64,000 nt of DNA from contig NZ_WTYS01000001.1 in NCBI RefSeq assembly GCF_009827545.1, positions 955,772-1,019,771 of the forward strand. The letters run 5' to 3'. Shown here piece by piece: positions 35,813-55,233 of the stretch (position 1 is its first letter; every line of letters begins with the position of its first letter). The notes beneath the pieces are model-generated. The model was given only the letters and a program-made list of their open reading frames with translations, ran no database searches and had not been told where the DNA came from. The position numbers and the translations under genes are program-made. The DNA is from Pontixanthobacter gangjinensis (GTDB lineage Bacteria; Pseudomonadota; Alphaproteobacteria; Sphingomonadales; Sphingomonadaceae).

Positions 35813-35883
35813 GCGCAAAATCCGGTAAGCCTCTTGACCGGGGTGGCCCTTTGCGTCTTTCCTTTGTGAAGGGGGAATATGCG

Positions 35884-38985: not shown

Positions 38986-40365
38986 GTGATACGAATCCGG
39001 GCGAAGGCACTATTGCTGCTTGCCGCGCCATTATTGGCGGCGGCGGCATTTCTTACGGGCAGTTTTCATGCAAGTGACGCGCAGGCGCAAGCTGGCGGTG
39101 CCACTTATGAAGGCGTTGCGACCTGTGCAGGCTCAACCTGCCATGGCCGGGCCGAGGGTAATGGAGAAGTTGTCCGCCAAGATGAAATTGCCAGCTGGCA
39201 GGAACCGTCATCATCAACAGGTGCGCATAGCAGAGCCTTTGCCGCGCTCGCGTCCCCGCGTGGACGCCAAATTGCTGCGAGCCTTGGCCTTGGTTCCGCG
39301 ACATCGGCGCAGGCCTGCCTCGGGTGCCACGCGACTTATGTTCCCAAATCACGGCAAGGGGCACGTTTCCTGACCGCTGACGGTGTTGGCTGCGAAAGCT
39401 GCCACGGGCCGTCCTCGCGCTGGCTGTCATCGCATTACGGCGTGCCGGGCACACATGCATCGAATGTGTCGCTCGGCCTGACACCGCTCGAAAACCCGCA
39501 GGTTCGGGCTAAGGTCTGCCTCGATTGCCATTATGGCAGCGCCGATGGAAACCAGTTCGTTACGCATTCGATGATGGCTGCCGGTCACCCTCGTGTTGCT
39601 TTCGAACTCGACCTGTTTTCTGCCTTGCAGCAGCATCATGACGAAGATGGCGATTATGCCGCGCGTAAGGGGAGGACTGACAGCGTCCGCCTGTGGGCGG
39701 TTGGTCAGGCAGAGGCGGTTGCACGGTCGACTGACCTGTTCTCACGACCGGGATTTGGCACGATGGGCGTGTTTCCCGAATATTACTTTTATGATTGTCA
39801 CAGCTGTCATCGCCAAATCAAGGATGGGCCGCAGCGCCAATTGACTTTCGAAACCAATCCGGGGCGCCCCATTCCATTCGGCATGGCACCCTATAATGAC
39901 GAAAATATCATCATGCTTTCGGCTGTGGCGAGGACTTTTGCGCCGGGCCGGGCTGCGGCATTCGACAGCGCTAGCAAGAATTTCCACCGCGCAATGGGCG
40001 AAGGGCGCAGTCAGGCAACGGCTGCTGCGCAGAAGCTCCGTGGCGAAGCCTCGGCACTTTCGGCGGCGCTGGCGGGCAGGGCCTATTCAGGAAATGATGC
40101 ATTCTCGGTCGTTCAGATGATTTCAGACACAGCAACCAACCCGCGCTTCACCGATTATGCTGGCTCTGCGCAAGCAGTGATGGCGGTTGACACGCTGCTC
40201 AATGCGATGGTTCGCGAAGGCCGCATTACAGTCGGCGCGGCAGCGGGGATCCGGGCCAACATCAACCGCGCTTATTCTGCTGTGCGCAGCCCTGAGGTTT
40301 ACCAGCCTGCCGCGTTCCGCGCGGCGCTCGGCCAAGCGACCCGCGCAATCGGGGTATTGCGGTGA
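38986..40365 (+). CDS. Periplasmic five-heme c-type cytochrome
   Basis: 459 residues from a GTG with a strong ribosome site. A signal peptide (AKALLLLAAPLLAAAAFL...) is followed by five heme-binding motifs: an unusual CAGSTCH (CX4CH, residues 47-53), then CLGCH (111), CESCH (136), CLDCH (178) and CHSCH (271). Several free histidines (HSRAF, HPRVAF, HASN) could serve as distal ligands. The heme half resembles the cytochrome c554-type multiheme family; the C-terminal 180 residues are helical and lack heme sites. It opens an operon with a GlcG-like lipoprotein, a beta-barrel and a decaheme protein. Likely a periplasmic electron carrier; partners inferred from context. Confidence 0.88.
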   Translation: MIRIRAKALLLLAAPLLAAAAFLTGSFHASDAQAQAGGATYEGVATCAGSTCHGRAEGNGEVVRQDEIASWQEPSSSTGAHSRAFAALASPRGRQIAASLGLGSATSAQACLGCHATYVPKSRQGARFLTADGVGCESCHGPSSRWLSSHYGVPGTHASNVSLGLTPLENPQVRAKVCLDCHYGSADGNQFVTHSMMAAGHPRVAFELDLFSALQQHHDEDGDYAARKGRTDSVRLWAVGQAEAVARSTDLFSRPGFGTMGVFPEYYFYDCHSCHRQIKDGPQRQLTFETNPGRPIPFGMAPYNDENIIMLSAVARTFAPGRAAAFDSASKNFHRAMGEGRSQATAAAQKLRGEASALSAALAGRAYSGNDAFSVVQMISDTATNPRFTDYAGSAQAVMAVDTLLNAMVREGRITVGAAAGIRANINRAYSAVRSPEVYQPAAFRAALGQATRAIGVLR

Positions 40366-42344
40366 TGGCGCGTCGGATTGGAAATGCTCTTTGTATGGCC
40401 GCAGCATTGTCGCTTGCGGCGTGTGGCGGGGGTGACAGTTCTGCCCCGCCACCAACCGGCGGTGGCCCGCTGCCTACGCCAACTCCGCCACCTGCGGGAC
40501 GCCTGTTTGCCGATCCGGTTATGGCATCGCTGTCAGTCGCAGATGTGCAATTGGTGCTGGCGCAAGCAGTTGGTGAAGCGCAAGCGAGGGGCCTTGCATC
40601 GACTATTGCTGTAACCGACCGTGTGGGCAATGTGCTCGCCGTGTTTGAAATGAACGGCGCGCCCAAGACGACTTTCGTCAGCCGTAAGACCATCGGCGGC
40701 GAAGCGGCGGTAGGCCAGGAAATCGGGTTGCAGGGACGAGAGATTCCCTCAACGACAGTGGCCATCGCTAAAGCCATTACCGGAGCCTATTTGTCGAGCG
40801 GCGGCAACGCTTTCTCAACCCGTACCGCCAGCCAGATCGTCCAGGAACATTTTCCGCCTGCACCCACCACGAAGGGTCTCGAAAGCGGGCCGTTGTTCGG
40901 TGTGCAATTCAGCCAGCTGCCTTGTTCGGATCTCAACGCACGCTTCACGGGCGGAGCGGGTTCCAACGCTTTGATTGGGCCGAAGCGCTCGCCAATCGGC
41001 CTCGCAGCCGATCCGGGTGGATTTCCGCTGTATAAGAACGGCGTGGTGGTTGGCGGAATCGGCATCGCTGGTGACCGCGATTATGGTGCCGACAATAATA
41101 TTCTCGACATAGATCTCGATGATGAAGAGGCGATTGCGCTCGCCGGAATTCAGGGCTTTGCGCCGCCAATAGAGATTACTGCCGACCGTATTCCCGTCGA
41201 TGGCACTACGCTGCGTTTTAGCGACATGACCATTGGCGACCTGTCGCCGATCCAGACTAGCTTTGGCGCGGTCAACGGGCCTGCCGGAATGCTGATTGGG
41301 GTGACCGGATATAATGCCGCTGTGATCCAGCCTGGTGCAGCTTACGGCACAGAGCAATCGGGCATCCGCCGCAGCACAACCGCCGAATTTTCCAATGCGG
41401 ACGCCTATGTGCTGACCGATGGTGCTGGCAATAGCCGATTCCCAATCCGAGCAGGCACCGATGCGGCGAGTGTCGGCCAGCCGCTGACGGCCGACGAAGT
41501 TCGGGCGATTTTGGAAGAGGCATTTGCTGTTCTCTCCCGTTCACGTGCGCAAATCCGCCGTCCGGTAGATAGCCGGATGCAAGCTTCCGTCAGCCTGGTC
41601 GATACACATGGGCAGGTGCTGGGGCTTGTGCGCTCGCCTGACGGCCCGATTTTCGGAACCGATGTTTCGCTGCAAAAGGCGCGGACGGCGGCCCTGTTTT
41701 CCAATCCTGTCGCGAGCCAGCAATTGCTCGCGACACCAGCGGCGGCACCTTATGTTTCGCGCGTTCGGACTTTTCTGAATGACCCCGATGCGCTTACGGG
41801 TAATTTCGCCTTTGCCGATAGGTCGGGCGGAAACCTGTCGCGCCCCTATTTCCCTGATGGTCAGCTAAATACGCCGCCAGGTCCATTATCCGTGCAGCAA
41901 TCTTCCCAATTCAGCCCGTTCGCAGTCGGTTTGCAGACCGATTTGATCGCGGGAGACATCGTAAATCACCTACGCTTTGTGCTTGGAATGAATGCCGACC
42001 CCGCTCCTGGATGCACGAACATCCCGGCGTCACCTAGCGGGAATAAGCGGATCGCCAATGGCATCCAGATTTTTCCCGGCTCTGTACCGATCTACCGCGG
42101 CAACCAGCTGATCGGCGGCATTGGCGTGTCGGGTGACGGGATTGATCAGGATGACATGGTCAGTTTCCTCGGCTTGCACAATGCGGGCATCCGGCTTGGC
42201 AGTCTGGGTAATGCACCGAAGGACATCAGGGCGGACCGGATCGAGGTGGCAGTGGGCAATCGCACGGTCCGCTTGCGTTACGTCAGTTGCCCCTTCGCAC
42301 CATTCCTTGACACGGCTGAACAGAATGTTTGCGAGGGCCTTTAG
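40365..42344 (+). CDS. Lipoprotein with two GlcG/HbpS-like domains
   Basis: 659 residues; the ATG at 40365 overlaps the cytochrome stop (TGATG). Lipobox LAAC is followed by a Pro-rich linker. Two related domains follow: copy 1 (about 55-260) with TIAVTDRVGNVLAVF and FPLYKNGVVVGGIGIAGD, copy 2 (about 375-640) with SVSLVDTHGQVLGLV and VPIYRGNQLIGGIGVSGDG. These are the signature segments of the GlcG/HbpS family, some of whose members bind heme. The family is usually a single domain of about 140 residues, so this is a large, expanded and duplicated form. In this operon it could bind or deliver heme or scaffold cytochromes; this is inference. Confidence 0.82.
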   Translation: MARRIGNALCMAAALSLAACGGGDSSAPPPTGGGPLPTPTPPPAGRLFADPVMASLSVADVQLVLAQAVGEAQARGLASTIAVTDRVGNVLAVFEMNGAPKTTFVSRKTIGGEAAVGQEIGLQGREIPSTTVAIAKAITGAYLSSGGNAFSTRTASQIVQEHFPPAPTTKGLESGPLFGVQFSQLPCSDLNARFTGGAGSNALIGPKRSPIGLAADPGGFPLYKNGVVVGGIGIAGDRDYGADNNILDIDLDDEEAIALAGIQGFAPPIEITADRIPVDGTTLRFSDMTIGDLSPIQTSFGAVNGPAGMLIGVTGYNAAVIQPGAAYGTEQSGIRRSTTAEFSNADAYVLTDGAGNSRFPIRAGTDAASVGQPLTADEVRAILEEAFAVLSRSRAQIRRPVDSRMQASVSLVDTHGQVLGLVRSPDGPIFGTDVSLQKARTAALFSNPVASQQLLATPAAAPYVSRVRTFLNDPDALTGNFAFADRSGGNLSRPYFPDGQLNTPPGPLSVQQSSQFSPFAVGLQTDLIAGDIVNHLRFVLGMNADPAPGCTNIPASPSGNKRIANGIQIFPGSVPIYRGNQLIGGIGVSGDGIDQDDMVSFLGLHNAGIRLGSLGNAPKDIRADRIEVAVGNRTVRLRYVSCPFAPFLDTAEQNVCEGL

Positions 42345-44302
42345 TGAGCGTTGCATTCATCCTTCCTTTGATTTTACAAGCGGGCGAGCCGCCTAAACAG
42401 GTAAACGCTGGCGATAGTTTTGCCCGCTCATTCGATGCTGCAATCTTGCAAGTCCAGCCGTCGGAAAAGCGGCAGCGTCCCGGCGAAACTCCGCCAACTG
42501 AAGTGGAATCTCCACCGGAACCGACCCAATCGCCTGATGCAATCGAGGCCGAGCCGGGTGAACCGCCTGCGGTTGACAATGAGTCAATTGACGGACGCCG
42601 CAGACCAGGGATTACGGGGGAATTACCGGACCGTATCACTCAGGAAAATGAAGGCGCTTTCCGTGCCCCGCCGCCGGAGGCTTTCCCGACAGACCAATTG
42701 CCTATTCCAGATCGGTGGAGGTTAATTCAGTCACTCGGGCTGGTGAAGGAGAACTGGCGCGACCCGTATAATCAGAACACCTATAAGGGTGACCGGCCGA
42801 TTAACCGCGCCAAAGTTCCGTGGCTGCCGATAAAGGGCAATGACTGGTTTTTCGTTGGCAATGTTATCAGTGATACGGTGATCGAACCGCGCACCTTCCC
42901 GATTCCGGTGGGGGTGCAAACCACACAGGATCCTGACCGGCTCGACGTTTTCGGAAATGAATCCAGTCTGGTGCTGTCGCAGACATTCATCGCAGGGGCA
43001 GCGCTACTGAAGGGTAACACGGCATTTGTCCCTCCGACCATCGAATATCGTGTCACGCTCGCGCTCAATGTAAACTATGTCGATGTGCCCGAACGCCGGG
43101 TGCTGTTTGTCGAACCAACCAAACCGACGCACCGGCTCGACCATTTCCTTGGGCTTCAAGAGGCGTTTGTTGATTATCATTTCAGCGAATATGATACAGA
43201 CCGGTTCGATTTCATCTCGATCCGTGCCGGGATTCAGCCGTTTCAGGCCGATTTCCGCGGGTTTCTGTTCAACGATAACCAGCTGGGCGTGCGTCTGTTC
43301 GGCAACCGCGATAACAACCGCGTACAGTTCAATCTCGCGGCATTCTGGCGGCTGGAGAAAGACACCAACAGCGGGCTGAATGCGATCACGCAGTCACCGC
43401 GTGACGATTTCTTTCTGATCGCCAATGCATACCGCCAGGATTTCCTTATCCCTGCGCTGACCAGCCAGATTACCTTTGCTTATAACCGCAATCGCGAGGG
43501 CAATGATACAAAGGTCGACGATAATGGTTTTCCGGTTCGCCCGGCCTTGCTCGGCACACTACGCGGGCGTGATTATGACGTATTCTATCTCGGCTATAAT
43601 GCGGACGGACGGGTTGGCCGGATCAATATCACCGCCAGCGCCTATGGCGCGTTCGGCGAAGACCGGAACAGCTTCTTCACTGACCGGCCAGCGGACATTC
43701 GCGCCTTCTTTGCGGCAACCGAATTAAGTTATGACCGGGACTGGATGCGCTTCCGCCTGTCAGGCGCCTATGCCAGCGGTGATGGCGACCCCTATGATGA
43801 TGTCGAAACAGGCTATGACGCGGTGTTTGAAAACCCGATATTTGCAGGGGCAGATACGTCTTACTGGATACGCCAGACGATTCCGTTTGCCGGGGGAGGG
43901 CGGAATGTTTCGGTCAACAATCGCAACGGCCTGCTCAATTCTCTGCGTCCCTCAAAAGAGCAGGGTCAGTCCAATTTCAATAATCCCGGCCTGATGCTGC
44001 TTGGCGCCGGTGCCGATTTCGACCTGACGCCCGAATTCCGGCTGTCCACCAACGCCAACCATTTGTGGTTTGAAAATACCGCAACTTTGGGGGCTCTTAG
44101 AAACGAGGGCAGCATACCTAAGGAAATCGGCTGGGACCTGTCTGCGGCAGCCATTTGGCGGCCCAAGGCGACGCAAAACATTGTCTTCCGCCTTTCGGGA
44201 GCAGCCCTGCTTTCGGGAAAAGGCTTTGACGATTTGTTCGACAATCTGGGCAATACCGGGACATATTACTCCGTGCTCGCAAATCTGATTTTGACCTACT
44301 GA
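42344..44302 (+). CDS. Outer-membrane beta-barrel in cytochrome operon
   Basis: About 652 residues from a GTG that overlaps the previous stop (TAGTG) and has GAGGG eight bases upstream. A TTG at 42329 would give a better signal peptide, with an arginine (MRGPLVSVAFILPLIL), so the start is uncertain. After a disordered Pro/Glu-rich stretch (to about residue 110) the protein is made of alternating amphipathic strands rich in aromatic ends and Asn/Asp turns, ending in NLILTY; a terminal aromatic residue is typical of outer-membrane barrels. Size is close to MtrB/PioB-type porins, but no CxxC is present at its N-terminus, so homology is not claimed. It lies between cytochrome genes and may hold a multiheme protein in the membrane. 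Confidence 0.8.
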   Translation: MSVAFILPLILQAGEPPKQVNAGDSFARSFDAAILQVQPSEKRQRPGETPPTEVESPPEPTQSPDAIEAEPGEPPAVDNESIDGRRRPGITGELPDRITQENEGAFRAPPPEAFPTDQLPIPDRWRLIQSLGLVKENWRDPYNQNTYKGDRPINRAKVPWLPIKGNDWFFVGNVISDTVIEPRTFPIPVGVQTTQDPDRLDVFGNESSLVLSQTFIAGAALLKGNTAFVPPTIEYRVTLALNVNYVDVPERRVLFVEPTKPTHRLDHFLGLQEAFVDYHFSEYDTDRFDFISIRAGIQPFQADFRGFLFNDNQLGVRLFGNRDNNRVQFNLAAFWRLEKDTNSGLNAITQSPRDDFFLIANAYRQDFLIPALTSQITFAYNRNREGNDTKVDDNGFPVRPALLGTLRGRDYDVFYLGYNADGRVGRINITASAYGAFGEDRNSFFTDRPADIRAFFAATELSYDRDWMRFRLSGAYASGDGDPYDDVETGYDAVFENPIFAGADTSYWIRQTIPFAGGGRNVSVNNRNGLLNSLRPSKEQGQSNFNNPGLMLLGAGADFDLTPEFRLSTNANHLWFENTATLGALRNEGSIPKEIGWDLSAAAIWRPKATQNIVFRLSGAALLSGKGFDDLFDNLGNTGTYYSVLANLILTY

Positions 44303-47300
44303 TGCGTATTTCTCGCCCTACGCTCGATCTAAAAACACTCGCCTTTGTCGTGGCGCTGCTATGCGCGGCAGTCGCCATGGTTCTAGGCGGACAGACCAAC
44401 GCCGCATCAGGCGAGAAACCGGTAAAGCGCGATTATTCGCAAATTTGGAAAGAACCTGCACCGGCACGCCAACCTGGCATTACGATCGAAGAGCGTTTGG
44501 CAGCGGTCGCCGCGAAGTCTGACGGCTGTTACAGCTGCCACGTTAAAACCGACGCGCCAAGCATGCACGCTACGCCTGCGGTAGAGCTTGGCTGCGTTGA
44601 TTGCCACGGTGGCAATGCGGCCATCATGGGCAACAGCAAGCTGGAGCATGATGATCCGCTTTATGTGAAAGCGCGCGAGCTTGCCCATGTGCTGCCTAAA
44701 TATCCCGAAAGCTGGCATTATCCTTCTTCGGCAAATCCGAAGCGTACCTATGGCTTGCTGAACAAGGAATCGCCCGAATTCGTCCGTTTTGTGAACCCGA
44801 GCGATTACCGCGTCGCGCGCGAAAGTTGCGGCGCGTGTCATATGCCGGTGATCGAGGCAGGCGAGCGTTCGCTGATGGCGACCGGCGCAATGCTGTGGGG
44901 CGGGGCGGCCTATAATAACGGTATTTTACCGTATAAGAATTACGCGCTGGGAGAAGCCTTCACCCGCGACGGATTGCCCGCAAAACTGCTTAGTCCGGGA
45001 TCGCCTCCGGGCACCGTAACTGAAAGACAGAAAGCGCGTGGGGCCTTGGCGGCGCTCTATCCGCTACCGTCTTGGCAGGTTATCCCGCCGGGCGATGTGT
45101 TCCGCGTGTTTGAACGCGGCGGACGGACGATTAACACCCAATTCCCTGAAATCGGATTGCCAAGCCCGACCGGCTCGATCCAGCGTTTGGAGGAACCGGG
45201 CCGCCCCGATATCAAGCAATCGAATCGCGGACCGGCGACCGGTCTTCGTGTCGCTATTCCCGCGCTCAACATTCACAAAACCCGTCTCAATGATCCGTTT
45301 ATGTGGTTCATGGGAACCAATGACCAGCCGGGCGATTACCGCCATTCGGGCTGCGCCGCCTGCCATGTGGTCTATGCCAATGACCGCGAGCCGCGCCATA
45401 GTCTCATCTATGCGAAATTTGGCCGAGATGGTCAGACGCAAACGATCGACCCGACCATCGCGAACAAGCTCGAACCCAAGTATGGCGGTGGCCACGGTAA
45501 TGGGCACAATGATGATGATGAGCAGGCTAATCATGGCGAGAAAACAAGCGGACATGGTGGCCTGAAACAGCCGGGGGATCATGCTGAAGATGGGCACGAC
45601 AAAGACGCACCGATGAAAGAAAAGGGGCATCCGCTCAAACACGTCTTCACGCGGTCAATCCCGACATCGCAATGCATGAATTGCCATATGCATCAGCCCA
45701 ATATCTTCCTGAATTCCTATCTCGGCTACACGATGTGGGATTATGAATCGGACGCGCCGCTAATGTGGCCGGGGCCGGACAACAAGACGCCGCGCCCGCC
45801 GGGCATGAGTGATCAGGAATATGAAGATACCTATCTGAAGCAGCGCTATCCCAATGCTTCCGAAGTTCTGGAAGTGCTTGCGCGCAATCCAGAAGGCGCT
45901 TCACCTAAGGGCCTGTGGGGCGATCTTGATTTCCTGCGCAATGTTTATGATCTGAACTCAGAGGCGACCGATACGCAATTCGCCGATTATCACGGCCACG
46001 GGTGGAATTTCCGCGCGATTTTCAAGCGCGACCGTGAAGGCAATCTGCTCGATAAAGACGGCAATATTGTCGATAATGACGATCCCGAAAAATTCCGTAA
46101 GGAAGGCGAAGGCAAATTTGTCGAGCCGGGCACCAATCCGGGCAAAGCGGTCCATATGATGGACATCCACGCCGAAGTTGGAATGCAATGCGCTGATTGC
46201 CACTTTGCGCAAGACAGCCACGGCAACGGGCTGATTTACGGTGAGGTCGCCAATGCAATCGAGATCGGCTGCAAGGACTGTCACGGCACTGCCGACGCCT
46301 ATCCCACACTGTTTACCAGTGGCCCTGCCGCGCCGCCCAAGGGCAACAATCTGTCGCTGCTTCGCAACCCGGATGGCCAGCGCCGCTTCGAGTGGAGCTA
46401 TGACAATATGGGCCGCAAGACTCTTGTTCAAAGGTCGATTGTCGATCCCGAACTGGAATGGAAAGTCAGCCTGACCAAAGATAGCGTCGACAAAAACTCA
46501 CCCCATTTCAACGCCAAATCTGCCCGCGCAAAATTGATGGCGCGGGGAGGTGCGGAAAGCGGCCGGTTCGAATTCGGCACTGGTATTGCTCAGGGCGACC
46601 GTGCGCATGAAGATGGCGAGATGGCCTGTTTCACTTGCCACCTCAGTTGGACAACATCATGCGGCGGGTGCCATTTGCCAATCGAGGCAAACTGGAAAAC
46701 CGCTGATCACCATTATGAAAACAAGGAATCGCGCAACTTCGCGACTTACAATCCGCAGGTTGCGCGCGATCAGATGTTCCAATTGGGCAAGCACCAGACG
46801 ACCAAGGGAAATCAGGTTGCTCCGGTTCGTTCAACTTCGGCGCTGGTCCTGTCATCGACTAACATCAACCGCGAACGGATTTATGCGCAGCAACCACCGG
46901 TCAGCGCAATTGGCTTCAGCAGTCAGGCCTTTGCACCGCATTTTCCGCATACGGTGCGCCTGACGGAAACCAAGACCTGTTCCGACTGCCACCTGTCTGA
47001 GGCTGACGACAATAACGCGATTATGTCCCAGTTGCTGTTGCTCGGGACCAATTATGTAAACTTTGTCGGGATCAATGCTTGGACCGGACTAGAAGGCGGG
47101 TTCGAGGCGGTGCGTGTGACCGAGTGGGACGAGCCGCAAACTGTGCTCGGTTCCTATCTGCACAAATACGCCTATCCCGATTATTACAAACAATTCGTCG
47201 AGGAAAATGACCGAGAATTGAAGGATTGGATTCGCGGCGACGCGTTTGACGAGAACCTGTCGGGAGAGACCAAACCGTTTGAAGAATTCGCCAATGTTCA

Positions 47301-48498
47301 TGAGGGGACAAGCGACCGTGTCGGTTGCCTTCAGCTTCGCGGCGAGTACATGTTTGTCGCGGCCGGCAAGGGCGGCTTCCGCGTTTATGATGTCGCTTCG
47401 ATTGCCAATAAGGGCATTTCGGAACGGATTATCACTGCGCCGTTTAGCCCACTCGGCCAAGATACGATTGTGGGTTCGAAGAATGCGACCTGTATGGCGC
47501 TGGCGACCAATCAGCCGATCAATCCGCTGCGTAACACCGAACAGATGCGCAAGGACAATCAGGAGCAACCATTCCTGCCGATCTATCAATATGCTGTGGT
47601 GACCGATAGCGAGGAGGGGATGATCCTCGTCAACGTCAATACCATGGCTGACGGCGAGTTTCGCAATAACAAGCTGAGCCGTGCGAAATTCTCAAACGGA
47701 AGCACGGCCTGGAACGAGGGCGGGGTGCTTAACGGTGCGCGCCACGTCCATCTGGCTGGCGAAATTGCCTTCATTACGGCCGATCGCGGTCTTGTTGTGA
47801 TGGACCTTGCCGATCCAATGAACCCGCAAGTTGTTGCGGTGCGCGAGTTAACCGATGCGAGAGCCTCGGCGATCCAGTTCCGCTACTTGTGGGTTACTGA
47901 TGCTGATGGCGTGAAGCTGTTCGATGTCACCAATATGCGCAATCCGGTGCCGATGCCGCAAGGCACGATCCCGCTCGCCAATGCGCAACGGCTCTATCTT
48001 GCACGGACATACGCCTATGTTGCGGCCAAGCAGGATGGTTTGGTAATTGTCGACATTACCCGTCCGCTCGCGCCCAAGATTTACAAAAAAGAGACGCTGG
48101 GCGGCACTCTGAATGATGCTGAGGATGTGATTGTGGCTTCAACCAACGCATCGTTGTTCGCCTATGTCGCGGACGGGGTGAACGGTATGAAAGTGCTGCA
48201 ACTGACCAGCCCGTCCAGCCAGCCCAATTTCTACGGCTTCAGCCCCGCGCCCAAGCCGGAAATGGTCGCTTGGGCCAAGACCAAGAGCCCGGCAATATCG
48301 CTATCCAAAGGCCTCGACCGCGACCGTGCAGTTGATGAAACCGGAGGCCAGATGGCGGTGTTCGGCAGGCTCGGATCGCGCCCCTTCACCCGCGAGGAAA
48401 TGGAGAAATTGTTCCTGACGGGCGGAGGCGTGCCGTGGAAAGTCAGCGACGAGCCTGACATGAGCGCATGGGTAGGTGGAAGTTTGCGGCCAAATTGA
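44302..48498 (+). CDS. Decaheme c-type cytochrome with C-terminal beta-propeller
   Basis: 1,398 residues; the ATG overlaps the barrel stop (TGATG). An N-terminal signal or anchor helix (about 10-30) is followed by ten CxxCH motifs: residues about 76, 98, 176, 351, 458, 630, 657, 776, 787 and 893. A His/Asp/Gly-rich insert (about 395-444) separates hemes 4 and 5 and could bind metal. From about 1,010 to 1,330 there are repeated blades with the LVIVD pattern (GLVVMDLADPMNPQVVAV, GLVIVDITRPLAPKIY, GFRVYDVAS). Such fused heme-propeller proteins are generally exported. I infer it works in the periplasm or at the cell surface with the adjacent barrel. Its redox partner and substrate are unknown. 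Confidence 0.9.
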   Translation: MRISRPTLDLKTLAFVVALLCAAVAMVLGGQTNAASGEKPVKRDYSQIWKEPAPARQPGITIEERLAAVAAKSDGCYSCHVKTDAPSMHATPAVELGCVDCHGGNAAIMGNSKLEHDDPLYVKARELAHVLPKYPESWHYPSSANPKRTYGLLNKESPEFVRFVNPSDYRVARESCGACHMPVIEAGERSLMATGAMLWGGAAYNNGILPYKNYALGEAFTRDGLPAKLLSPGSPPGTVTERQKARGALAALYPLPSWQVIPPGDVFRVFERGGRTINTQFPEIGLPSPTGSIQRLEEPGRPDIKQSNRGPATGLRVAIPALNIHKTRLNDPFMWFMGTNDQPGDYRHSGCAACHVVYANDREPRHSLIYAKFGRDGQTQTIDPTIANKLEPKYGGGHGNGHNDDDEQANHGEKTSGHGGLKQPGDHAEDGHDKDAPMKEKGHPLKHVFTRSIPTSQCMNCHMHQPNIFLNSYLGYTMWDYESDAPLMWPGPDNKTPRPPGMSDQEYEDTYLKQRYPNASEVLEVLARNPEGASPKGLWGDLDFLRNVYDLNSEATDTQFADYHGHGWNFRAIFKRDREGNLLDKDGNIVDNDDPEKFRKEGEGKFVEPGTNPGKAVHMMDIHAEVGMQCADCHFAQDSHGNGLIYGEVANAIEIGCKDCHGTADAYPTLFTSGPAAPPKGNNLSLLRNPDGQRRFEWSYDNMGRKTLVQRSIVDPELEWKVSLTKDSVDKNSPHFNAKSARAKLMARGGAESGRFEFGTGIAQGDRAHEDGEMACFTCHLSWTTSCGGCHLPIEANWKTADHHYENKESRNFATYNPQVARDQMFQLGKHQTTKGNQVAPVRSTSALVLSSTNINRERIYAQQPPVSAIGFSSQAFAPHFPHTVRLTETKTCSDCHLSEADDNNAIMSQLLLLGTNYVNFVGINAWTGLEGGFEAVRVTEWDEPQTVLGSYLHKYAYPDYYKQFVEENDRELKDWIRGDAFDENLSGETKPFEEFANVHEGTSDRVGCLQLRGEYMFVAAGKGGFRVYDVASIANKGISERIITAPFSPLGQDTIVGSKNATCMALATNQPINPLRNTEQMRKDNQEQPFLPIYQYAVVTDSEEGMILVNVNTMADGEFRNNKLSRAKFSNGSTAWNEGGVLNGARHVHLAGEIAFITADRGLVVMDLADPMNPQVVAVRELTDARASAIQFRYLWVTDADGVKLFDVTNMRNPVPMPQGTIPLANAQRLYLARTYAYVAAKQDGLVIVDITRPLAPKIYKKETLGGTLNDAEDVIVASTNASLFAYVADGVNGMKVLQLTSPSSQPNFYGFSPAPKPEMVAWAKTKSPAISLSKGLDRDRAVDETGGQMAVFGRLGSRPFTREEMEKLFLTGGGVPWKVSDEPDMSAWVGGSLRPN

Positions 48499-48535
48499 TG
48501 GGATGAATGGGAAAGATACTTTGGAGGAGGGGTAA

Positions 48536-49021
48536 ATGCTTCGGATTATTAAGTCATTGCTAGTGCTTTTCATCGGGCTTCACGCCCTGTTTTACGCGCT
48601 GCAGAATCTCGCGAATTTATCTGCTGCGCATCAGGCACTTGGATATGTGCTGTCTGGCGCTGATCACGAAGTTTATCCCAATACATTGTTCTTCAAGCTC
48701 GACAGTCCAATGCTGAGCGGCTTGGCTCTTATGCTCGTTTTGATAGGCGAATTTGCAGTAGCGTTCTTTGGTATAAAGGGCGGCTGGGATCTTTTGAAAG
48801 CGCGCGGCGGAACCAAAGAAGAATTTCACGCTGCCAAGCACGCAGGCCTTGTCGCCGCCGGATTGGCGCTGCTGGTGTGGTTCGGTTTCTTCATGACATT
48901 CGGTGCGGCTTTCTTCCAAATGTGGCAAACCCAAGTCGGAACAGGCTCGATGAACGGTGCCTTCATGTATGCAATGGCATCGGCGATCACTATGTTGTTC
49001 GTTTGTCTGACCGATGACTGA
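48536..49021 (+). CDS. DUF2165 small integral membrane protein
   Basis: 161 residues with four hydrophobic helices. The pattern LHALFYALQNLANL, GADHEVYPNT and the last helix region match DUF2165 membrane proteins of unknown function. It begins 37 bases after the decaheme gene with a GGAGGAGGGG ribosome site, so it is likely the last gene of the cytochrome operon. A role in anchoring or membrane delivery would be guesswork. Confidence 0.85.
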   Translation: MLRIIKSLLVLFIGLHALFYALQNLANLSAAHQALGYVLSGADHEVYPNTLFFKLDSPMLSGLALMLVLIGEFAVAFFGIKGGWDLLKARGGTKEEFHAAKHAGLVAAGLALLVWFGFFMTFGAAFFQMWQTQVGTGSMNGAFMYAMASAITMLFVCLTDD

Positions 49022-49076
49022 GATCGCTGCTTGGCAAGCCCGCTGAATTGGTGAGCTGGGCACCAATGCCGTGAAC

Positions 49077-49925
49077 TCATTCCCGCTCGGCAAACATCCC
49101 TTGGATCATGCCCTGCAGGCCCGCATCATACCGTGCCAGCACCACCCAGTCGCTGACTTTTTCGAAATGCGTCAGCAATTGGTCATCCGCCCAGCGGTGG
49201 ATGGCATAGGTTGGCGGTTCGGTAGTGATCAGGTCGCGGTGGTCGGGTGTTTCTGGATCAATCGGGCGTAAATCCATCGCCACCAGCGGCGCTACGGATG
49301 GAGTTACGCTCACCAGAATGCCGCGGAATGTGGTGGTGATCGGGCGATGCAAATGGCCGCAATGGATCGCCCTGATCTGACTGTGTCCCTCGATCGCGTC
49401 ACCGAAACGGACCATCCAGGGTTCGTCCTTGCCCGGGTCCATCCAGCCAATGCCGGACACAACCGGTGGATGATGCATGAATATCAGAGTGGGCGTCTCT
49501 GGATGCGCTGCCAGTTCAGCCTTCAGCCAGGCGGAACGGACCTCACAAAAGGCGCCGCCGTGGCGGCCGACCTCCAGCGTATCGAGGAATAATATGCGCA
49601 GGCCATCTTGCTCGACCGCATATTGGATGAAGCCGTCCTGTGTCGGTGTGTCGGGGAAAGCGTGGAGGAGACCCTCTCGTGTATCGTGATTGCCCGGTAT
49701 CGAGTAAATCGGCACTTCGCATTTCTTGAGCAGGCCAGCAGTTTTCTCGAAGCTTTCCTTATCGCCATGGTCGGTCAAATCGCCGGTCAACACCAGCATA
49801 TCGATGGGGTTGGGGCCGCCAAGCAGCCGGTCCAGAGTGGCGCGGAACCGGATACGGTTAAGCTCCTCCGGCTTGGCATCGGGATCGAAGCCGATATGGA
49901 TATCGGTCATCTGCGCTATCAGCAT
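49077..49925 (-). CDS. Class III cyclic-nucleotide phosphodiesterase-like metallophosphoesterase
   Basis: 282 residues of the calcineurin-like CpdA/Icc family. The di-metal site is complete: TDIHIG, VLTGDLTDHG, PGNHD, MHHPPV and CGHLHRP. Family members hydrolyse cAMP, other cyclic nucleotides or glycerophosphodiesters. It is the last gene of the minus-strand operon, 63 bases after the FHA-decaheme gene. With a cyclase at 35884 and cyclic-nucleotide-binding domains in the first gene of this operon, cAMP removal is the most economical role, though substrate is not proven by sequence. Confidence 0.88.
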   Translation of the reverse strand: MLIAQMTDIHIGFDPDAKPEELNRIRFRATLDRLLGGPNPIDMLVLTGDLTDHGDKESFEKTAGLLKKCEVPIYSIPGNHDTREGLLHAFPDTPTQDGFIQYAVEQDGLRILFLDTLEVGRHGGAFCEVRSAWLKAELAAHPETPTLIFMHHPPVVSGIGWMDPGKDEPWMVRFGDAIEGHSQIRAIHCGHLHRPITTTFRGILVSVTPSVAPLVAMDLRPIDPETPDHRDLITTEPPTYAIHRWADDQLLTHFEKVSDWVVLARYDAGLQGMIQGMFAERE

Positions 49926-49988
49926 GCGGCCCTGCTTCCCCCTTACTTGCCCAGATGCGCCATTTTTGTGTCAGTCATTTCGGGCCAA

Positions 49989-51776
49989 TCATTTTGGCTT
50001 CCGGTTGATCATGGCGACTTTGTCCGGTGTGCCCGTCTTCTTCTCTCCGGGCAAGTCCTTGGGTTTGGTGGCGACAGTCGCCGGGTGATAGGAATGGCAC
50101 ATCGCGCAACTAGATGGCACCTCTGCTTGTTTCGCATCCTCGCCCAAATGGCAATCGCGGCAGATGGCGATTGGCGGTAGCAACAAATCTTCCGAAGTGC
50201 TGGAGGTACCAGCCTTGTGGCAAGTGCTGCATTCTTCCTGCTCGTGCGATTTATGGTCGAACCAGCCGTGCATCAAATAATTATCACGAAGGTGGACAGG
50301 CATCACGTCTGGCTTGCCGTTTTTAGTCGTCGGGACGTGACATTCACCGCAGACGCCATCGCTGGAAAGCGCACGGTTGATCGCAATGTAAGACCGCGCA
50401 GGGCGTCCGAAGTTCTGGTAATAGAGACCGCCACGAGCAAATTCACCCGGGCGTTTTCTGCCGGTAACGATCGCGCGGCGCGGGGCGCGGTCCATGGCGC
50501 GCAGATCGGCTTGCATCTCCTCGACTTTCCCGTGCCGTAGCGAGCGGAAAGTGGAGCCGACTTTGTCATAGACTAGGCTGTGACAGCTCTCACAATTCTC
50601 TTCCATATTAACGGGAAGGAAGCTGTTCCTGTCCGCTGTCGGGGTGTGGCAATCCGAACAGACCAGCTTGCTGCCATAACCATTCTTGGCCCCGATATTC
50701 CCGGCCATTTTCGCGACACCTCCGCCTGATTCAAGGTGCAGATCATGCGGGAATTTCAGACCGTGCTGTTCACGTGGATTGTCAGCAAGCGACAAGCGTT
50801 GTGTTTTATCGCTGCCCAGTTCCGGGTGGAAGACTGCTTTGAACTGAGGATGGGCGGTGCCAAAATCGGCGGCATTTTCCAGCTTGGTATCAGTCAGCCG
50901 CGCGTCCATACCGTTGTGACAATCGGAACAGAATTGTTGCGCCGTTGGCTCCATCCGGCCAGCACCTTCATGTTCGCTATGGCAAGTGGTGCACGAACCG
51001 GGGCCTTCTTTGCCGAACTTCTCAGCAACAGCCCACAGGAATTCGTCGCCTTTCGACATCGGGCCGCGGCTGGTATTCTGGCGAGGGATAGCAGCGTGGT
51101 CACCAATGCTTTCATGGCAGGTCAGGCAGGTTGCATCCTGTACCGACTGGAACGGTTCGACATGGCATGCCTCGCAATTATCCTCGAGGCCGTGGTGCGC
51201 CTGACTTAGCGATCCGGTGCTCCAACTGGCGTCCATCATTGTCTCGCCTGGACCGGCATAGCCGGAATTGCCCCCATCATTATTGCTGCTGCGGTTCAGG
51301 TGGGTGTAAATCGGGATGGCCAGAAACGCGATCAGGATTGCAGCAAGCCCGATCCACGCCATAATCCGCTTGCTCGGTAAAGCAGATGCCAGTGCAAAGC
51401 CTTTGACCTCGGCTGTGTCCTCAGTGTGATCTGCGGTTTTGCTGATGGTGATCGAAATCGGTTCGTCACCGTCTTGCGAAAATTCCAAACGGAAGCTGCC
51501 AAAGCTAAGCTCACCGCCCTCGTTTGGACGGAAACTGGCGGATTTTGTTGTGCGGCCATCATGGGTGAAGCCAAGCGAACCTGCCGCCTCAACCGATATT
51601 TTACCGCCGGTTTTGATAGTGACGACGGCGTGATTTTGCTCGACCGCCAGATCTGCCAGATGAACATCATTTTCAGATGCGCGGCCAATCGTCAGCGTGT
51701 CTTTATCGATTTGCCGATCACGGACAATTTCGCGGCCGGTGGAGGTGAAGTCGATTGTGCGGATCAGGAAGGTCAT
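49989..51776 (-). CDS. FHA domain - transmembrane - decaheme cytochrome fusion
   Basis: 595 residues. An N-terminal FHA domain (about 1-105) has LTIGRASENDVHL and NHAVV; the serine normally before the His-Ala is Glu46, so phosphothreonine binding may be changed. A single helix (about 137-158) crosses the membrane, placing FHA in the cytoplasm. The C-terminal region holds ten CxxCH motifs (residues 201, 217, 262, 283, 373, 395, 476, 516, 539, 557). It starts 10 bases after the di-heme b gene and should receive electrons from it or from quinol. I know of no standard family with this architecture. Calls for heme count and topology are firm; regulation through FHA is inference. Confidence 0.9.
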   Translation of the reverse strand: MTFLIRTIDFTSTGREIVRDRQIDKDTLTIGRASENDVHLADLAVEQNHAVVTIKTGGKISVEAAGSLGFTHDGRTTKSASFRPNEGGELSFGSFRLEFSQDGDEPISITISKTADHTEDTAEVKGFALASALPSKRIMAWIGLAAILIAFLAIPIYTHLNRSSNNDGGNSGYAGPGETMMDASWSTGSLSQAHHGLEDNCEACHVEPFQSVQDATCLTCHESIGDHAAIPRQNTSRGPMSKGDEFLWAVAEKFGKEGPGSCTTCHSEHEGAGRMEPTAQQFCSDCHNGMDARLTDTKLENAADFGTAHPQFKAVFHPELGSDKTQRLSLADNPREQHGLKFPHDLHLESGGGVAKMAGNIGAKNGYGSKLVCSDCHTPTADRNSFLPVNMEENCESCHSLVYDKVGSTFRSLRHGKVEEMQADLRAMDRAPRRAIVTGRKRPGEFARGGLYYQNFGRPARSYIAINRALSSDGVCGECHVPTTKNGKPDVMPVHLRDNYLMHGWFDHKSHEQEECSTCHKAGTSSTSEDLLLPPIAICRDCHLGEDAKQAEVPSSCAMCHSYHPATVATKPKDLPGEKKTGTPDKVAMINRKPK

Positions 51777-51786
51777 TATCCGCGCC

Positions 51787-52665
51787 TCACCAGTAATAGA
51801 ACACGCTGATGATATGCGCGGCGAGGGCCGCGATCAGCGCTATTGTTGCGGGAATATGGATGAACAGCCAAATTTCGAGCAGCGCCTTGTAGCGCATATG
51901 CCGGCGGATTTGGCTTAGTTGTGACTTGCGACGGCCAAGCAAGGCCAGCACGCGATCAATATCTTCGTCACCAGAGTTTTCGGGCAGGCTGTTCAGCGCG
52001 CGATTGGTGGCGCAGCGGGGATAATTGCCGCTCATGCGGGCAAGAGTGCCTGCCTTGAACACGTCTTGGCCTAGCGCCTTGATCACCAAATCGGACGCCT
52101 CCCGGTCCAGAGGCTGCGCGGCGCTGTCCAATTGCCGGTCAATTGCCGCCAGCGCTTCGATCATTTGGCCGCGTGTCATTTCGCGCGCATTGGTGCTGAG
52201 CGAACGCGGCAAAGCGGCATAGACCGAAATTCCGTAAATTCCCGACACGATGACCAGCATCATCAATGCCCAAGCCAGCGTGTGAACATTCCAGCCCAGT
52301 TGGAAGCCGGTGTGCATGGTGCCGATAACAACCAACGCAAGTCCAAGATACACATGCGCGCTAGTCCACGCTTTCAGGCTCCACCGGCCTGCCGTCATAT
52401 TACGTTTGCGGATGCCGAGCAGCGACAGCCACAAGATCAGCAATACCCCGATTGTGCCAAGCGTATATCCATACCAGGTGCCGCCATTATGGCGCGGTTC
52501 GACATCGACCAGAAAATAGGAAACGATTACGATCAGGCACAAGGTGGCGGAGACTTTGAGCCAGCGCATGCGCTTGTGCGACAGGAAGCTTTCATGATCG
52601 GTATCGCGGCGCTTTTCAGCGAGCGCAAAATTAGAACCGTCATCATTCTTGGCTGAAGATGCCAT
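51787..52665 (-). CDS. Di-heme cytochrome b-like membrane protein
   Basis: 292 residues with about five membrane helices in two blocks separated by a soluble loop (about 155-258). Two histidines 14 residues apart lie on one helix (His104, His118) and two with the same 14-residue spacing on another (His270, His284); this is the pattern of two stacked bis-His b hemes, as in membrane electron-transfer cytochromes. His128 is extra. The start overlaps the upstream oxidoreductase stop (TGATG) and its stop is 10 bases before the FHA-decaheme gene. It would pass electrons across the inner membrane between the Fe-S module and the periplasmic decaheme. The family itself I do not recognise. Confidence 0.8.
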   Translation of the reverse strand: MASSAKNDDGSNFALAEKRRDTDHESFLSHKRMRWLKVSATLCLIVIVSYFLVDVEPRHNGGTWYGYTLGTIGVLLILWLSLLGIRKRNMTAGRWSLKAWTSAHVYLGLALVVIGTMHTGFQLGWNVHTLAWALMMLVIVSGIYGISVYAALPRSLSTNAREMTRGQMIEALAAIDRQLDSAAQPLDREASDLVIKALGQDVFKAGTLARMSGNYPRCATNRALNSLPENSGDEDIDRVLALLGRRKSQLSQIRRHMRYKALLEIWLFIHIPATIALIAALAAHIISVFYYW

Positions 52666-55118
52666 CAGTCAACGTCCTCCACCAATTTGGTGAAGGTCAG
52701 AAATTTCTCCGGCGCGACACGAATTGCAGCGCCAGTAGGACAGGCGCGCACGCAAGCGGGGCCGCCTTCAATTCCGGCGCACATATCGCATTTGATCGCG
52801 AGCTTCGCCTGCTCAAGGTTCTTCTTCTCGGCGGTTTTCTTGCGCCAGCTGTAGCTTGCTTCGCCAGGTCCGGGACCAGCACCGAATAGCAGCCATGACA
52901 GCAGCGAAGGCTTCTTCGGCGGCTTGGGGTCCATCCGGATTACGCCATAGGGGCAGTTGCGTTGGCAATTGCCGCAACCGATGCAAGTGTCATCGATAAA
53001 CACTTCTCCATCCGCGCCGCGTTTGATTGCGTTGGGCGGGCAATCGGCCATGCAATGCGGGTGTTCGCAGTGGCGGCAGGATGTCGGCACGTGCAAATGT
53101 GCATAGGTCCGCCCGGCCTCCCGGTCGAGGCGGCTGAGCCCTTCATGACTATCCGCGCAGGCTTTCTCGCAATTGTCGCAGCCGACGCATAGAGTCTCGT
53201 CAATCAACAGCACGTCGGTCGCTTCACCAAGGCCATTATCGATCAGGAATTTTGCAGTTTCGGAATACATATCGACCGCACTGCCGAAACTTTCCTTACG
53301 CTCCTCAACGAAGGCGTTAATCTTGCGGCGTTCGGCCATGTCATTCAGTGCGCGCTCGCGCAGCGCTGGGTTGCGCTCCATCAGACGCAGGAATGCGTCA
53401 CCAGGGAAGCGCACAACTTCAGATTTAATCGCGGCTTTCACGGTTGCCGTCCGCTTACTGCCGTCGATAACTGCCATTTCGCCGAAATAGGAACCTGCGG
53501 GAAGATACGACAAAAAGATCGGTTTGCCGCCAAGGCTCTTTTCGACAATCATCGAGCCTTGCTGAATGACGAAAATGTCCTTGTCGTCTCCGCCTTCTTC
53601 GACGACATTCTGGCCGGCGCGAATTTTTACCAGTTCGGCAGCCTCGACCAGTTCGGCTACATCCTCCTTGGTCAGGCCTGAGCCGAACATTTGCAGTAAT
53701 TGCCGCTCGATAGTGATGCGGTTTACCGCCCGTGCCGCCGATGGCGCGGTGGCGAGCAGCTTCAGCGCCGCATTGCGCGATAATTCCAGCGTAACGGTCG
53801 GTTCTGCTGCGCGCACGGTCGAACCCCGGCGACGACCGGAAATCAGGCCAACCTCGCCAAAGATCGACCCTTGCTCGATTGGCACTGTAATCGAACTGTC
53901 TTCAGGGTTCACTTCAACCAGCACGGATCCCTCAGCGATGGCAAACATGGAAGATCCGGGGTCCTTGCGGACAAAGATTACATCATCGGTTCCAAAAGCG
54001 TCCACATCGCTGTCGAGCATGAGCTCGCGCATTTGTAGCGGCGATAATTCGCGCAGGATGACGATGTTATTGCGGAACACTTCAAGCCATTCATCAACCG
54101 AACGATTGCCCGGCAATCTTGCGAATTTTTCTGCTAGAATCGGCTCGTCGGCGGGTTTGAGTTCGTGATTTCCCATCAGGAACTCGATCACATCGTAGCC
54201 TTGATTCATACAATGCTTGATCAGCGGGTAACCCGCCAAGGCACCGATGACATGGATGCCGTTCTTGGTAGTTTCAAAGCTGGGCGACAGTTTGGGGAAG
54301 GCGCCGCGTTCCTCACTGGTAAAATCGATCCCGCAGCCTTCGACGAACCCGCGTGGCGGCTGTGAGCCGGTCCTCGCGATAATCCGGTCGCAAGGGATGG
54401 TCTCGGCACCGTCGCGGGTTTCAAGCACCAGCTCATTTTCGCGCACTTCCGTCGGAGTGGTTTCGCGCCGGACTGAAATGCGCCCGTCGCGCTCGGCTTC
54501 CTCTAGCAAGGCGACATTCGCCGGTTTCGCACGCGCAAAGTCGGCGCTGCGGTTCAGAATCGAGACTATGTTCCGCTGCGCCGGATCTGCTGCTAGCCCT
54601 AGCGCGTTTTCAATGCCTGCGTCACCAGAGCCGACGACTGTAATATGTTCGTCAAAATATTCACCGGGATCGTCGAGCTGATACTGGATCAGCGGCAAAT
54701 CGGCGCCCGGACAGCGCAATTTGTTGGGATTGCCTTGGGTGCCGATGGCCATCACCACCGCTTCGGCTTGAATCGTATCCCCGCCCTTTAATTCGATTGT
54801 GAAATCGCCGGTTTGTCCGGTGATCGCCGTCACTTCAGAATTTAGCCGCACATTGACTTTGTACTCGGCCATCTGGGTGTCCCAAGTGTCCAGAATATGC
54901 TCGCGCTTACCCGCTTCGAAATCGATGTCGCTGCGCAGCACCAGATTGCTGGGCGTAGCCATCACGTGCTTGCCCTTCTGGTATTTGAAAATCGTGTCGG
55001 ACAGGTGGTCAGTCTTCTCGATCAGGATGTGGCTGATCCCCTGCGCGGCAGCGTGCGCAGCAGCGGAAAGGCCGGCTGGCCCTGATCCTACGATAGCTAC
55101 TCGGTATTGATCCGGCAT
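52665..55118 (-). CDS. FAD/NAD(P) oxidoreductase fused to two cNMP-binding domains and a four-cluster [4Fe-4S] module
   Basis: 817 residues. Residues 1-330: a flavin disulfide-reductase fold with FAD motif VAIVGSGPAGLS and NAD(P) motif ITVVGSGDAGIE, but no CxxC, so it is not a thioredoxin reductase. Residues about 345-470 and 480-600: two cyclic-nucleotide-binding domains; phosphate cassettes IFGEVGLISGRRRGSTV and YFGEMAVIDGSKRTATV keep the Gly-Glu and Arg. Residues 640-800: sixteen cysteines in four groups (644-654, 681-693, 712-722, 777-793), a DmsB/NrfC-like ferredoxin. The likely path is NAD(P)H-FAD-Fe-S-cytochrome b, or reverse. GGGGGGATGA is the ribosome site. First gene of a four-gene operon. 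Confidence 0.92.
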   Translation of the reverse strand: MPDQYRVAIVGSGPAGLSAAAHAAAQGISHILIEKTDHLSDTIFKYQKGKHVMATPSNLVLRSDIDFEAGKREHILDTWDTQMAEYKVNVRLNSEVTAITGQTGDFTIELKGGDTIQAEAVVMAIGTQGNPNKLRCPGADLPLIQYQLDDPGEYFDEHITVVGSGDAGIENALGLAADPAQRNIVSILNRSADFARAKPANVALLEEAERDGRISVRRETTPTEVRENELVLETRDGAETIPCDRIIARTGSQPPRGFVEGCGIDFTSEERGAFPKLSPSFETTKNGIHVIGALAGYPLIKHCMNQGYDVIEFLMGNHELKPADEPILAEKFARLPGNRSVDEWLEVFRNNIVILRELSPLQMRELMLDSDVDAFGTDDVIFVRKDPGSSMFAIAEGSVLVEVNPEDSSITVPIEQGSIFGEVGLISGRRRGSTVRAAEPTVTLELSRNAALKLLATAPSAARAVNRITIERQLLQMFGSGLTKEDVAELVEAAELVKIRAGQNVVEEGGDDKDIFVIQQGSMIVEKSLGGKPIFLSYLPAGSYFGEMAVIDGSKRTATVKAAIKSEVVRFPGDAFLRLMERNPALRERALNDMAERRKINAFVEERKESFGSAVDMYSETAKFLIDNGLGEATDVLLIDETLCVGCDNCEKACADSHEGLSRLDREAGRTYAHLHVPTSCRHCEHPHCMADCPPNAIKRGADGEVFIDDTCIGCGNCQRNCPYGVIRMDPKPPKKPSLLSWLLFGAGPGPGEASYSWRKKTAEKKNLEQAKLAIKCDMCAGIEGGPACVRACPTGAAIRVAPEKFLTFTKLVEDVD

Positions 55119-55233
55119 TCATCCCCCCGATGATTGCGCGACATGAATTATGTTCTGGCGCCACAATAGGGAAATCGCGACAAACTACTAGACCCAATTG
55201 CCGGACAATTCGCATACTGATAGCGTGCGCCGC

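Follow-up and report, generated by a model that had tools for sequence, protein, structure and literature searches.

A candidate cyclic-nucleotide-controlled, NAD(P)H-linked electron-transfer system across the cell envelope of Sphingomonadales

Could a sphingomonad pass electrons from NAD(P)H in its cytosol to an acceptor at or beyond its outer membrane? The question is raised by two operons of Pontixanthobacter gangjinensis, whose genome is a single contig of 2,888,119 bases (NZ_WTYS01000001.1). They lie at positions 38986–55118 of a 64,000-nucleotide stretch of this contig (positions 955,772 to 1,019,771; hereafter the window), for which an original prediction, made from the sequence alone, had proposed a cyclic AMP (cAMP)-gated electron conduit from cytoplasm to outer membrane. 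Gene calls and coordinates agree with the two converging operons described there. Module A, on the plus strand, reads c5–hbp–barrel–prop, with overlaps of 1–16 bases between adjacent genes; module B, on the minus strand, reads red–cytb–fha–pde, with an overlap of one base between red and cytb. On balance, the sequences lean towards both modules forming one trans-envelope electron-transfer machine that is NAD(P)H-linked and controlled by a cyclic nucleoside monophosphate (cNMP). The six genes first named as its core stand, but hbp, pde and a neighbouring CHASE2-cyclase gene had been overlooked.

Redox parts of the two modules

At the cytosolic end stands the product of red (52665–55118, minus strand), in which an FAD/NAD(P) oxidoreductase part is joined to two cNMP-binding domains and four predicted [4Fe–4S] clusters. 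It matches PF13738 (Pyr_redox_3, E 1.6e-32), PF00027 (E 2.4e-30, two stretches), Fer4 domains and PF13247 (E 1.2e-10), and the 16 conserved cysteines within residues 644–793 are sufficient for the four clusters that had been claimed. Hydropathy analysis gives no hydrophobic segment. The Rossmann motif is GSGPAG in all 60 alignment rows; since YpdA relatives carry a redox cysteine at the position of its alanine, exit of electrons via the Fe–S part of Red is more likely. The glutamate–arginine pairs of the cNMP domains, E422/R431 and E547/R556, are kept in 60 of 60 rows; in CAP-like proteins these two residues of the phosphate-binding cassette hold the cyclic nucleotide. Red would exchange electrons with NAD(P)H through FAD and then the four clusters, and cAMP or another cyclic nucleotide may switch this flow via the cNMP domains, with a phosphodiesterase encoded in the same operon.

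The adjacent cytb (51787–52665, minus strand) encodes a predicted di-heme b membrane protein of the type found at the inner membrane in the porin-cytochrome systems PCC3 and PCC4. It has no Pfam match, and hence none to PF01794. Its WX3HX13H motifs start at residues 100 and 266, an SGXXG motif is found at 141, and the conserved histidines 104, 118, 270 and 284 all fall within the two WX3HX13H motifs, in line with the two b hemes first proposed. Four segments exceed the hydropathy threshold, while the helix at about 100–122 stays under it and was placed by its motif. Through its two b hemes, CytB would move electrons from Red across the inner membrane.

The product of fha (49989–51776, minus strand) combines an N-terminal FHA domain, one membrane helix (about 135–161) and a ten-heme domain. 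It matches PF14522 (E 6.1e-12) as well as PF16697 (E 6.4e-5) and PF00498 (E 6.7e-4), the last two below their own cut-offs, and contains ten CXXCH motifs. Heme c is attached outside the cytosol; with a single helix after the FHA domain, the latter should thus be cytosolic and the decaheme part periplasmic. As Red is predicted to be cytosolic and CytB to lie in the membrane, the order Red–CytB–Fha would span the inner membrane, the decaheme receiving electrons from CytB and the FHA domain probably docking Red. R32 and H49 of the FHA domain are kept in 62 of 62 rows. The operon ends with pde (49077–49925, minus strand), encoding an SpdA/CpdA-like metallophosphoesterase (PF00149, E 2.6e-17; NF050112 SpdA, 142 bits against a cut-off of 400).

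Module A begins with c5 (38986–40365, plus strand), which encodes an exported c554-type cytochrome (PF13435, E 1.1e-9) with one CX4CH and four CXXCH motifs. It is followed by hbp (40362–42344, plus strand), encoding a lipoprotein-like protein with HbpS-like domains (PF03928, E 4.2e-21, three matched stretches) and a lipobox, LSLAAC. The product of barrel (42329–44302, plus strand) matches no Pfam family at E 0.01, and its one hit in a sequence search of the PDB (E 0.95) is due to chance; its AlphaFold2 model is an 18-stranded beta-barrel of modest confidence (pLDDT 62, pTM 0.63), consistent with the outer-membrane barrel first proposed. The last gene, prop (44302–48498, plus strand), encodes an exported decaheme cytochrome with a signal-like N terminus, ten CXXCH motifs and a C-terminal LVIVD propeller (PF08309, E 2.3e-11); searching the PDB by sequence at E 0.01 gave zero matches. 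Together, C5, Hbp, the barrel and Prop could deliver electrons to an acceptor located on the outer membrane or outside it.

The domains and heme motifs of the FHA-tethered decaheme, the five-heme cytochrome and the decaheme-propeller are thus those that had been described, and the predicted c-type hemes add up to 25 (five in C5, ten each in Prop and Fha), in keeping with the earlier estimate of at least 25. These numbers are constant in the complete orthologues from loci L061–L160: five in 69 of 69 for C5, ten in 75 of 75 for Prop and ten in 61 of 61 for Fha. Seventeen non-motif histidines in the heme part of Prop and nine in that of Fha are kept at 97% or more, which is consistent with bis-histidine ligation. 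Throughout the host genome, the CXXCH pattern has 146 sites in the forward and 147 in the reverse direction; the corresponding numbers for the reversed pattern are 54 and 37. The PF09699 profile, a model of only 41 positions, gave zero matches in the host genome at E 0.001, though the window holds such motifs.

Joint occurrence within and beyond the order

Conserved co-occurrence of the core genes had been put forward as a check on the conduit. A scan of named genomes covered 256 relatives, the best 80 of which were kept as named loci; all are Sphingomonadales wherever the title gives that level, and the closest Prop among the named relatives kept is from Pontixanthobacter. For the order as a whole, 296 Sphingomonadales genomes were searched for prop, fha and c5, the conservation of hbp, barrel, cytb and red in the order being taken from the comparison of loci. 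Prop gave 76 matches, fha 78 and c5 75. After exclusion of one weak match for prop (G086) and three for fha (G145, G224 and G032), the three sets are identical: they comprise 75 of 296 genomes from 24 genera, all in the host's family. Carriers and non-carriers stand side by side in at least seven genera, suggesting that c5, fha and prop were probably gained and lost jointly on several occasions.

Linkage cannot explain this shared occurrence, because prop and fha are often far apart. Only 41 of the 75 genomes have them within 15 kb; in 15 they share a contig at distances of 16 kb to 2.2 Mb (above 390 kb in 11 cases), and in 19 they are on different contigs. In one genome (G159) fha starts at base 96 of its contig, which looks like a contig break. 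The expected conservation of the neighbourhood therefore holds for the co-inheritance of the three cytochrome genes, but the two operons are not neighbours in 34 of 75 genomes. Twenty genomes picked from these 34 served as split loci.

Seventy named loci extend far enough upstream of prop to include c5; the order is c5–hbp–barrel–prop in 69 of them, and the sole exception, in a metagenome bin (L101), has only barrel and prop. The barrel gene precedes prop in 77 named loci; the remaining three of the 80 are cut by contig ends. In module B, fha was found in 43 named loci, accompanied by cytb in 41 and by red in 40, the three exceptions being short loci, and red–cytb–fha is present in 20 of 20 split loci. 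Prop is present on twelve Sphingobium plasmid records, and full-length red on these same twelve. A propeller gene match in one genome (G119:C1:1397696-1402009) contains one in-frame TAG. The DUF2165 gene located between both operons (48536–49021) is without homologues among the 80 named loci.

Outside the order, a search of 398 genomes of the phylum with the cytb alignment gave 18 matches, 15 of them strong, and the red alignment (E <= 1e-60) found the same 15 genomes, eight in the host's family and seven elsewhere. Two of the distant genomes carry the genes in a single row and in one direction: red–cytb–fha–c5–glutamate dehydrogenase–hbp–barrel–prop in G653, and red–cytb–fha–hbp–barrel–prop–c5 in G645, where genes for a FecR protein, a metallo-beta-lactamase and a CHASE2-cyclase lie further along. 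The modules are convergent in G544, with a phosphodiesterase and a CHASE2-cyclase in between, whereas red–cytb–fha–hbp (G445) and red–cytb–fha (G296) lie close to or at contig ends; G296 has two full-length red copies on two contigs. In G328 and G444, Red and CytB are fused into one polypeptide of about 1,120 amino acids, which supports direct contact between the two proteins, and Fha has nine hemes. The distant copies counted have five hemes in 3 of 3 C5 and ten in 2 of 2 Prop; of seven Fha, five have ten and two have nine. It is the shared occurrence and these single-row arrangements that argue for a step from Fha to C5 and Prop.

A far relative of the system was kept from among the weaker cytb matches (L190, G574:C126). 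It encodes a 553-amino-acid protein with two cNMP stretches and Fe–S clusters lacking the FAD part, beside a separate FAD/NAD/2Fe–2S reductase, together with a CytB-like protein, a ten-heme protein and a c554-like four-heme protein; no porin was recognised within its 19 kb. The other two weak matches (G467 and G317) were dropped, as no multiheme open reading frame was seen in the stretches examined around them.

Cyclic-nucleotide link and known conduits

Control of the system by a cyclic nucleotide is likely, given two cNMP sites that look intact, the presence of pde in nearly all operons and the cyclases close to some copies. Pde adjoins fha in all 43 named loci that have fha and in 18 of the 20 split loci, which makes 61 of 63 operons. 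The host has, upstream of its module A, a gene for a CHASE2 and class III adenylate/guanylate cyclase (35851–37953, plus strand; PF05226, E 4.4e-24; PF00211, E 2.7e-14), with homologues at this place in 16 of 80 named loci (57–72% identity) and in two more at 29–31%; CHASE2-cyclases are also close to two distant systems (L199 and L200). The tie to cyclic nucleotides in the original prediction was therefore well placed, and gating of Red by cAMP may be its molecular form.

How does the locus compare with conduits already described? Its parts echo MtrCAB, MtoAB and PioAB in the general idea of a periplasmic cytochrome, a barrel and an outer cytochrome. A large barrel of the MtrB/PioB type is not seen here, the modest model having 18 strands and resembling AlgE/OprD types best, nor is a periplasmic decaheme of the MtrA type: against TIGR03508 (DmsE/MtrA family, cut-off 192.2 bits), C5 scores 21.9, Prop 15.6 and Fha 14.7 bits. 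MtrCAB-type conduits receive electrons through a quinol-linked, CymA-type input, which is replaced here by the FAD/NAD(P)/Fe–S protein. The locus was thus rightly set apart from MtrCAB and PioAB, but not from PCC3 and PCC4, which He et al. (2017; PMC5566968) predicted and put forward as putative porin-cytochrome systems. The inner-membrane protein described there has five helices, with WX3HX13H on helices 3 and 5 and SGXXG on helix 4, a signature that CytB matches exactly. In PCC4 subgroup II, a pfam13247 Fe–S gene lies upstream of the gene for this protein, as red (PF13247) does here, and in one strain both are annotated as a single gene (PMC5566968).

Cytochromes with 5 and 10 hemes are a further feature common to PCC4 and the locus, and the predicted barrel may correspond to the PCC4 porin, which was compared by description only. 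PCC4 has no extracellular multiheme cytochrome according to PMC5566968, and Prop, with its signal-like N terminus, may end up either inside or beyond the outer membrane. The PCC4 cytochromes have 4, 5 and 10 hemes, those of the locus 5, 10 and 10 with none of four. The locus differs further in the joining of an FAD/NAD(P) oxidoreductase part and a pair of cNMP domains to its Fe–S protein, in the FHA domain and membrane helix on a decaheme, and in the decaheme-propeller, the HbpS-like lipoprotein and the phosphodiesterase. For these reasons the system is classed as a variant close to PCC4, rather than as PCC4 itself. PCC3, under which an Erythrobacter Mn(II) oxidiser is listed in PMC5566968, likewise has a porin, multiheme cytochromes and a five-helix di-heme b protein with the same motifs; its cytochromes, however, have medians of 34 and 21 hemes, its porins have up to 42 transmembrane regions, and the relevant sections of PMC5566968 do not describe an FAD/cNMP/Fe–S protein for it. 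The terms 'cyclic', 'FHA', 'FAD' and 'sphingo' are absent from the main text of that paper, whose domain architectures sit in supplements.

Two other systems share some traits. In NOX and FRE proteins, electrons pass from NAD(P)H via FAD to two b hemes across the membrane with HX13H pairs, an analogy drawn in PMC5566968; the locus differs in the lack of PF01794 in CytB, the four [4Fe–4S] clusters in between and the decaheme partner. The Ext operon of Geobacter for selenite and tellurite (ExtM, ExtN) also encodes multiheme cytochromes, but Prop scores far below the family cut-offs: its match to NF040943 ExtM (60.7 bits, cut-off 800) places it outside that family and has its best stretch in about 50 residues around two heme motifs, and its matches to ExtN and ExtO are weak too. 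The literature searched contains neither a description of the FAD/cNMP fusion, the FHA anchor, the propeller-decaheme and the HbpS lipoprotein nor a functional test of such a system. Hence a general kind predicted before appears here with a composition and host range that are new within that literature.

Several neighbouring genes accompany the core. An exported protein of 252 amino acids (37925–38683, plus strand; no Pfam match) has homologues in exactly those 16 named loci in which the cyclase has its closer ones. Divergent from red lies a gene for a cytochrome c maturation factor, a TPR protein resembling CcmI/CycH (55198–56163, plus strand; PF23914, E 5.2e-15), whose homologues occur in 48 of the 80 named loci and in 15 of the 20 split ones; CcmI or CcmH genes nearby are in keeping with one electron-transfer machine. 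Promoter-like (16 against 9.8 expected) and terminator-like sites (12 against 17.7) in the window are not usable. A perfect CRP-like palindrome, TGTGA-N6-TCACA, is found at 50579–50594, inside the coding region of fha. Elsewhere in the window, 5955–7892 encodes a TIR-domain protein (PF13676, E 1.7e-21) with weak TPR matches following, possibly a signalling or defence protein, and 58351–59085 an Nmad3 family protein (PF18754, E 1.8e-70), the family being named for its association with nucleotide modification.

Direction of flow and competing readings

An outward direction of electron flow is favoured, as a flavoprotein of the NAD(P)H type stands at the cytosolic end. The machine would then probably serve the disposal of excess reductant, or the reduction of an extracellular oxidant (metal, metalloid or quinone) by an aerobe; the two COX1 genes of the host suggest that it probably respires oxygen. 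The stronger version of this proposal, an undescribed NAD(P)H-driven extracellular electron transfer that a cyclic nucleotide switches directly on the first redox protein, in roughly one in four of the genomes sampled from the order (75 of 296), is possible but doubtful.

The weakest part is the step at the outer membrane. MtrB has 26 strands, and the narrower, 18-stranded AlgE/OprD-like model makes a wire of cytochrome within a porin doubtful. In Foldseek, the best match of the model is AlgE (3rbh_C, E 8.8e-16, TMt 0.68), and no MtrB-type match is among the best 50 of 839. The role of the barrel could be to let a substrate through, to export a partner or to enclose a thin cytochrome. The conduit of the original prediction thus stands as a plausible path from Red via CytB to multiheme cytochromes outside the cytosol, while a cytochrome within the barrel and an extension to the cell surface remain proposals.

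Further observations weigh against one cNMP-controlled machine, or against parts of it. The AlphaFold2 model of Prop residues 1–1166 (pLDDT 36.6) was discarded and gives neither placement nor heme path. The co-occurrence figures are raw genome counts that are not corrected for kinship; a Sphingopyxis plasmid record holds prop without full-length red, and prop was not found in four of the seven outside genomes (G445, G296, G328 and G444), one of them 76% complete. Regarding control, only 18 of the 80 named loci have a homologue of the cyclase close by, pde is absent from two of 20 split loci, and the name of the NF050112 model points to 2',3'-cNMP, so that SpdA relatives may not act on cAMP. 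CRP-like and FNR-like sites show no excess in the window (15 against 20.7 and 37 against 30.3 expected). A phosphothreonine-binding FHA site consists of Gly-Arg, Ser and His, of which the FHA domain of Fha keeps Gly-Arg and His but lacks the Ser: position 46 is E in 34, N in 13, D in 5, T in 4, A in 3 and M in 3 of 62 rows, never Ser.

The channel-like barrel model also fits a different machine, a reductase in the periplasm or outer membrane that acts on a single soluble substrate such as selenite or tellurite and in which the barrel would be a substrate channel and not a wire. ExtM, from a selenite/tellurite operon, is the best NCBIfam match of Prop, and Sphingomonas ursincola KR-99, in which module A is present (L137), has an NADH-dependent membrane tellurite reductase of 62 and 55 kDa, as described in PMC5488091. 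The ExtM match, however, has its best stretch in the short region around two heme motifs, and the nearest mass-spectrometry match given in PMC5488091 for the KR-99 enzyme is GroEL; the tie of this enzyme to the locus is a lead only, and such a reductase is an unlikely explanation. Rather unlikely, too, is a flow in the inward direction, in which the surface side oxidises a donor of the Fe(II) or Mn(II) type, Red generates NAD(P)H or supplies the cell, and cNMP gates the uptake. The PCC3 and PCC4 models draw electrons from an extracellular donor to the quinone pool (PMC5566968), and the two COX1 genes of the host could drive such a flow. On the other hand, reduction of NAD(P) by Fe(II) or Mn(II) is uphill, no coupling site was seen in the locus, and the hosts are mainly known as heterotrophs.

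Assimilatory iron or heme chemistry, an NAD(P)H-driven, FRE-like reduction of extracellular ferric iron or heme with Hbp handling the heme or iron, is quite improbable. Its di-heme b layout is common to ferric reductases and NOX (PMC5566968) and the HbpS-like lipoprotein is conserved, but 25 c-type hemes are far above the number in known assimilatory reductases, and beyond the core genes and CcmI no cluster of open reading frames, not all of which are annotated, is common to more than seven of the 20 split loci. Finally, two envelope systems without one function might be retained by the shared lifestyle of the clade. Photosynthetic reaction-centre genes correlate with the system as well (29 of 75 carriers against 22 of 221 non-carriers, kinship not corrected); this correlation is loose compared with the perfect agreement of c5, prop and fha, and the single gene rows and the Red–CytB fusion outside the order make a mere shared lifestyle very improbable. 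Photosynthesis as the explanation was rejected, since the host and 46 of 75 carriers are without a reaction centre.

Electron export of the kind proposed for the two modules was not found reported for Sphingomonadales, mostly aerobic heterotrophs, in the literature searched; extracellular electron transfer has been studied chiefly in iron oxidisers and in bacteria that reduce metals. Many Sphingomonadales and some other Proteobacteria share, each part conserved, a system of 25 predicted c-type hemes that has an FAD/NAD(P)/Fe–S input, and membrane proteins of the PCC3/PCC4 type gain a defined cytosolic partner, which belongs to the same polypeptide in two genomes. Culturable sphingomonads such as Sphingobium, Novosphingobium and Sphingopyxis could be used for testing. 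If the system works as the sequences suggest, a second messenger would directly control electron export at the first redox protein.

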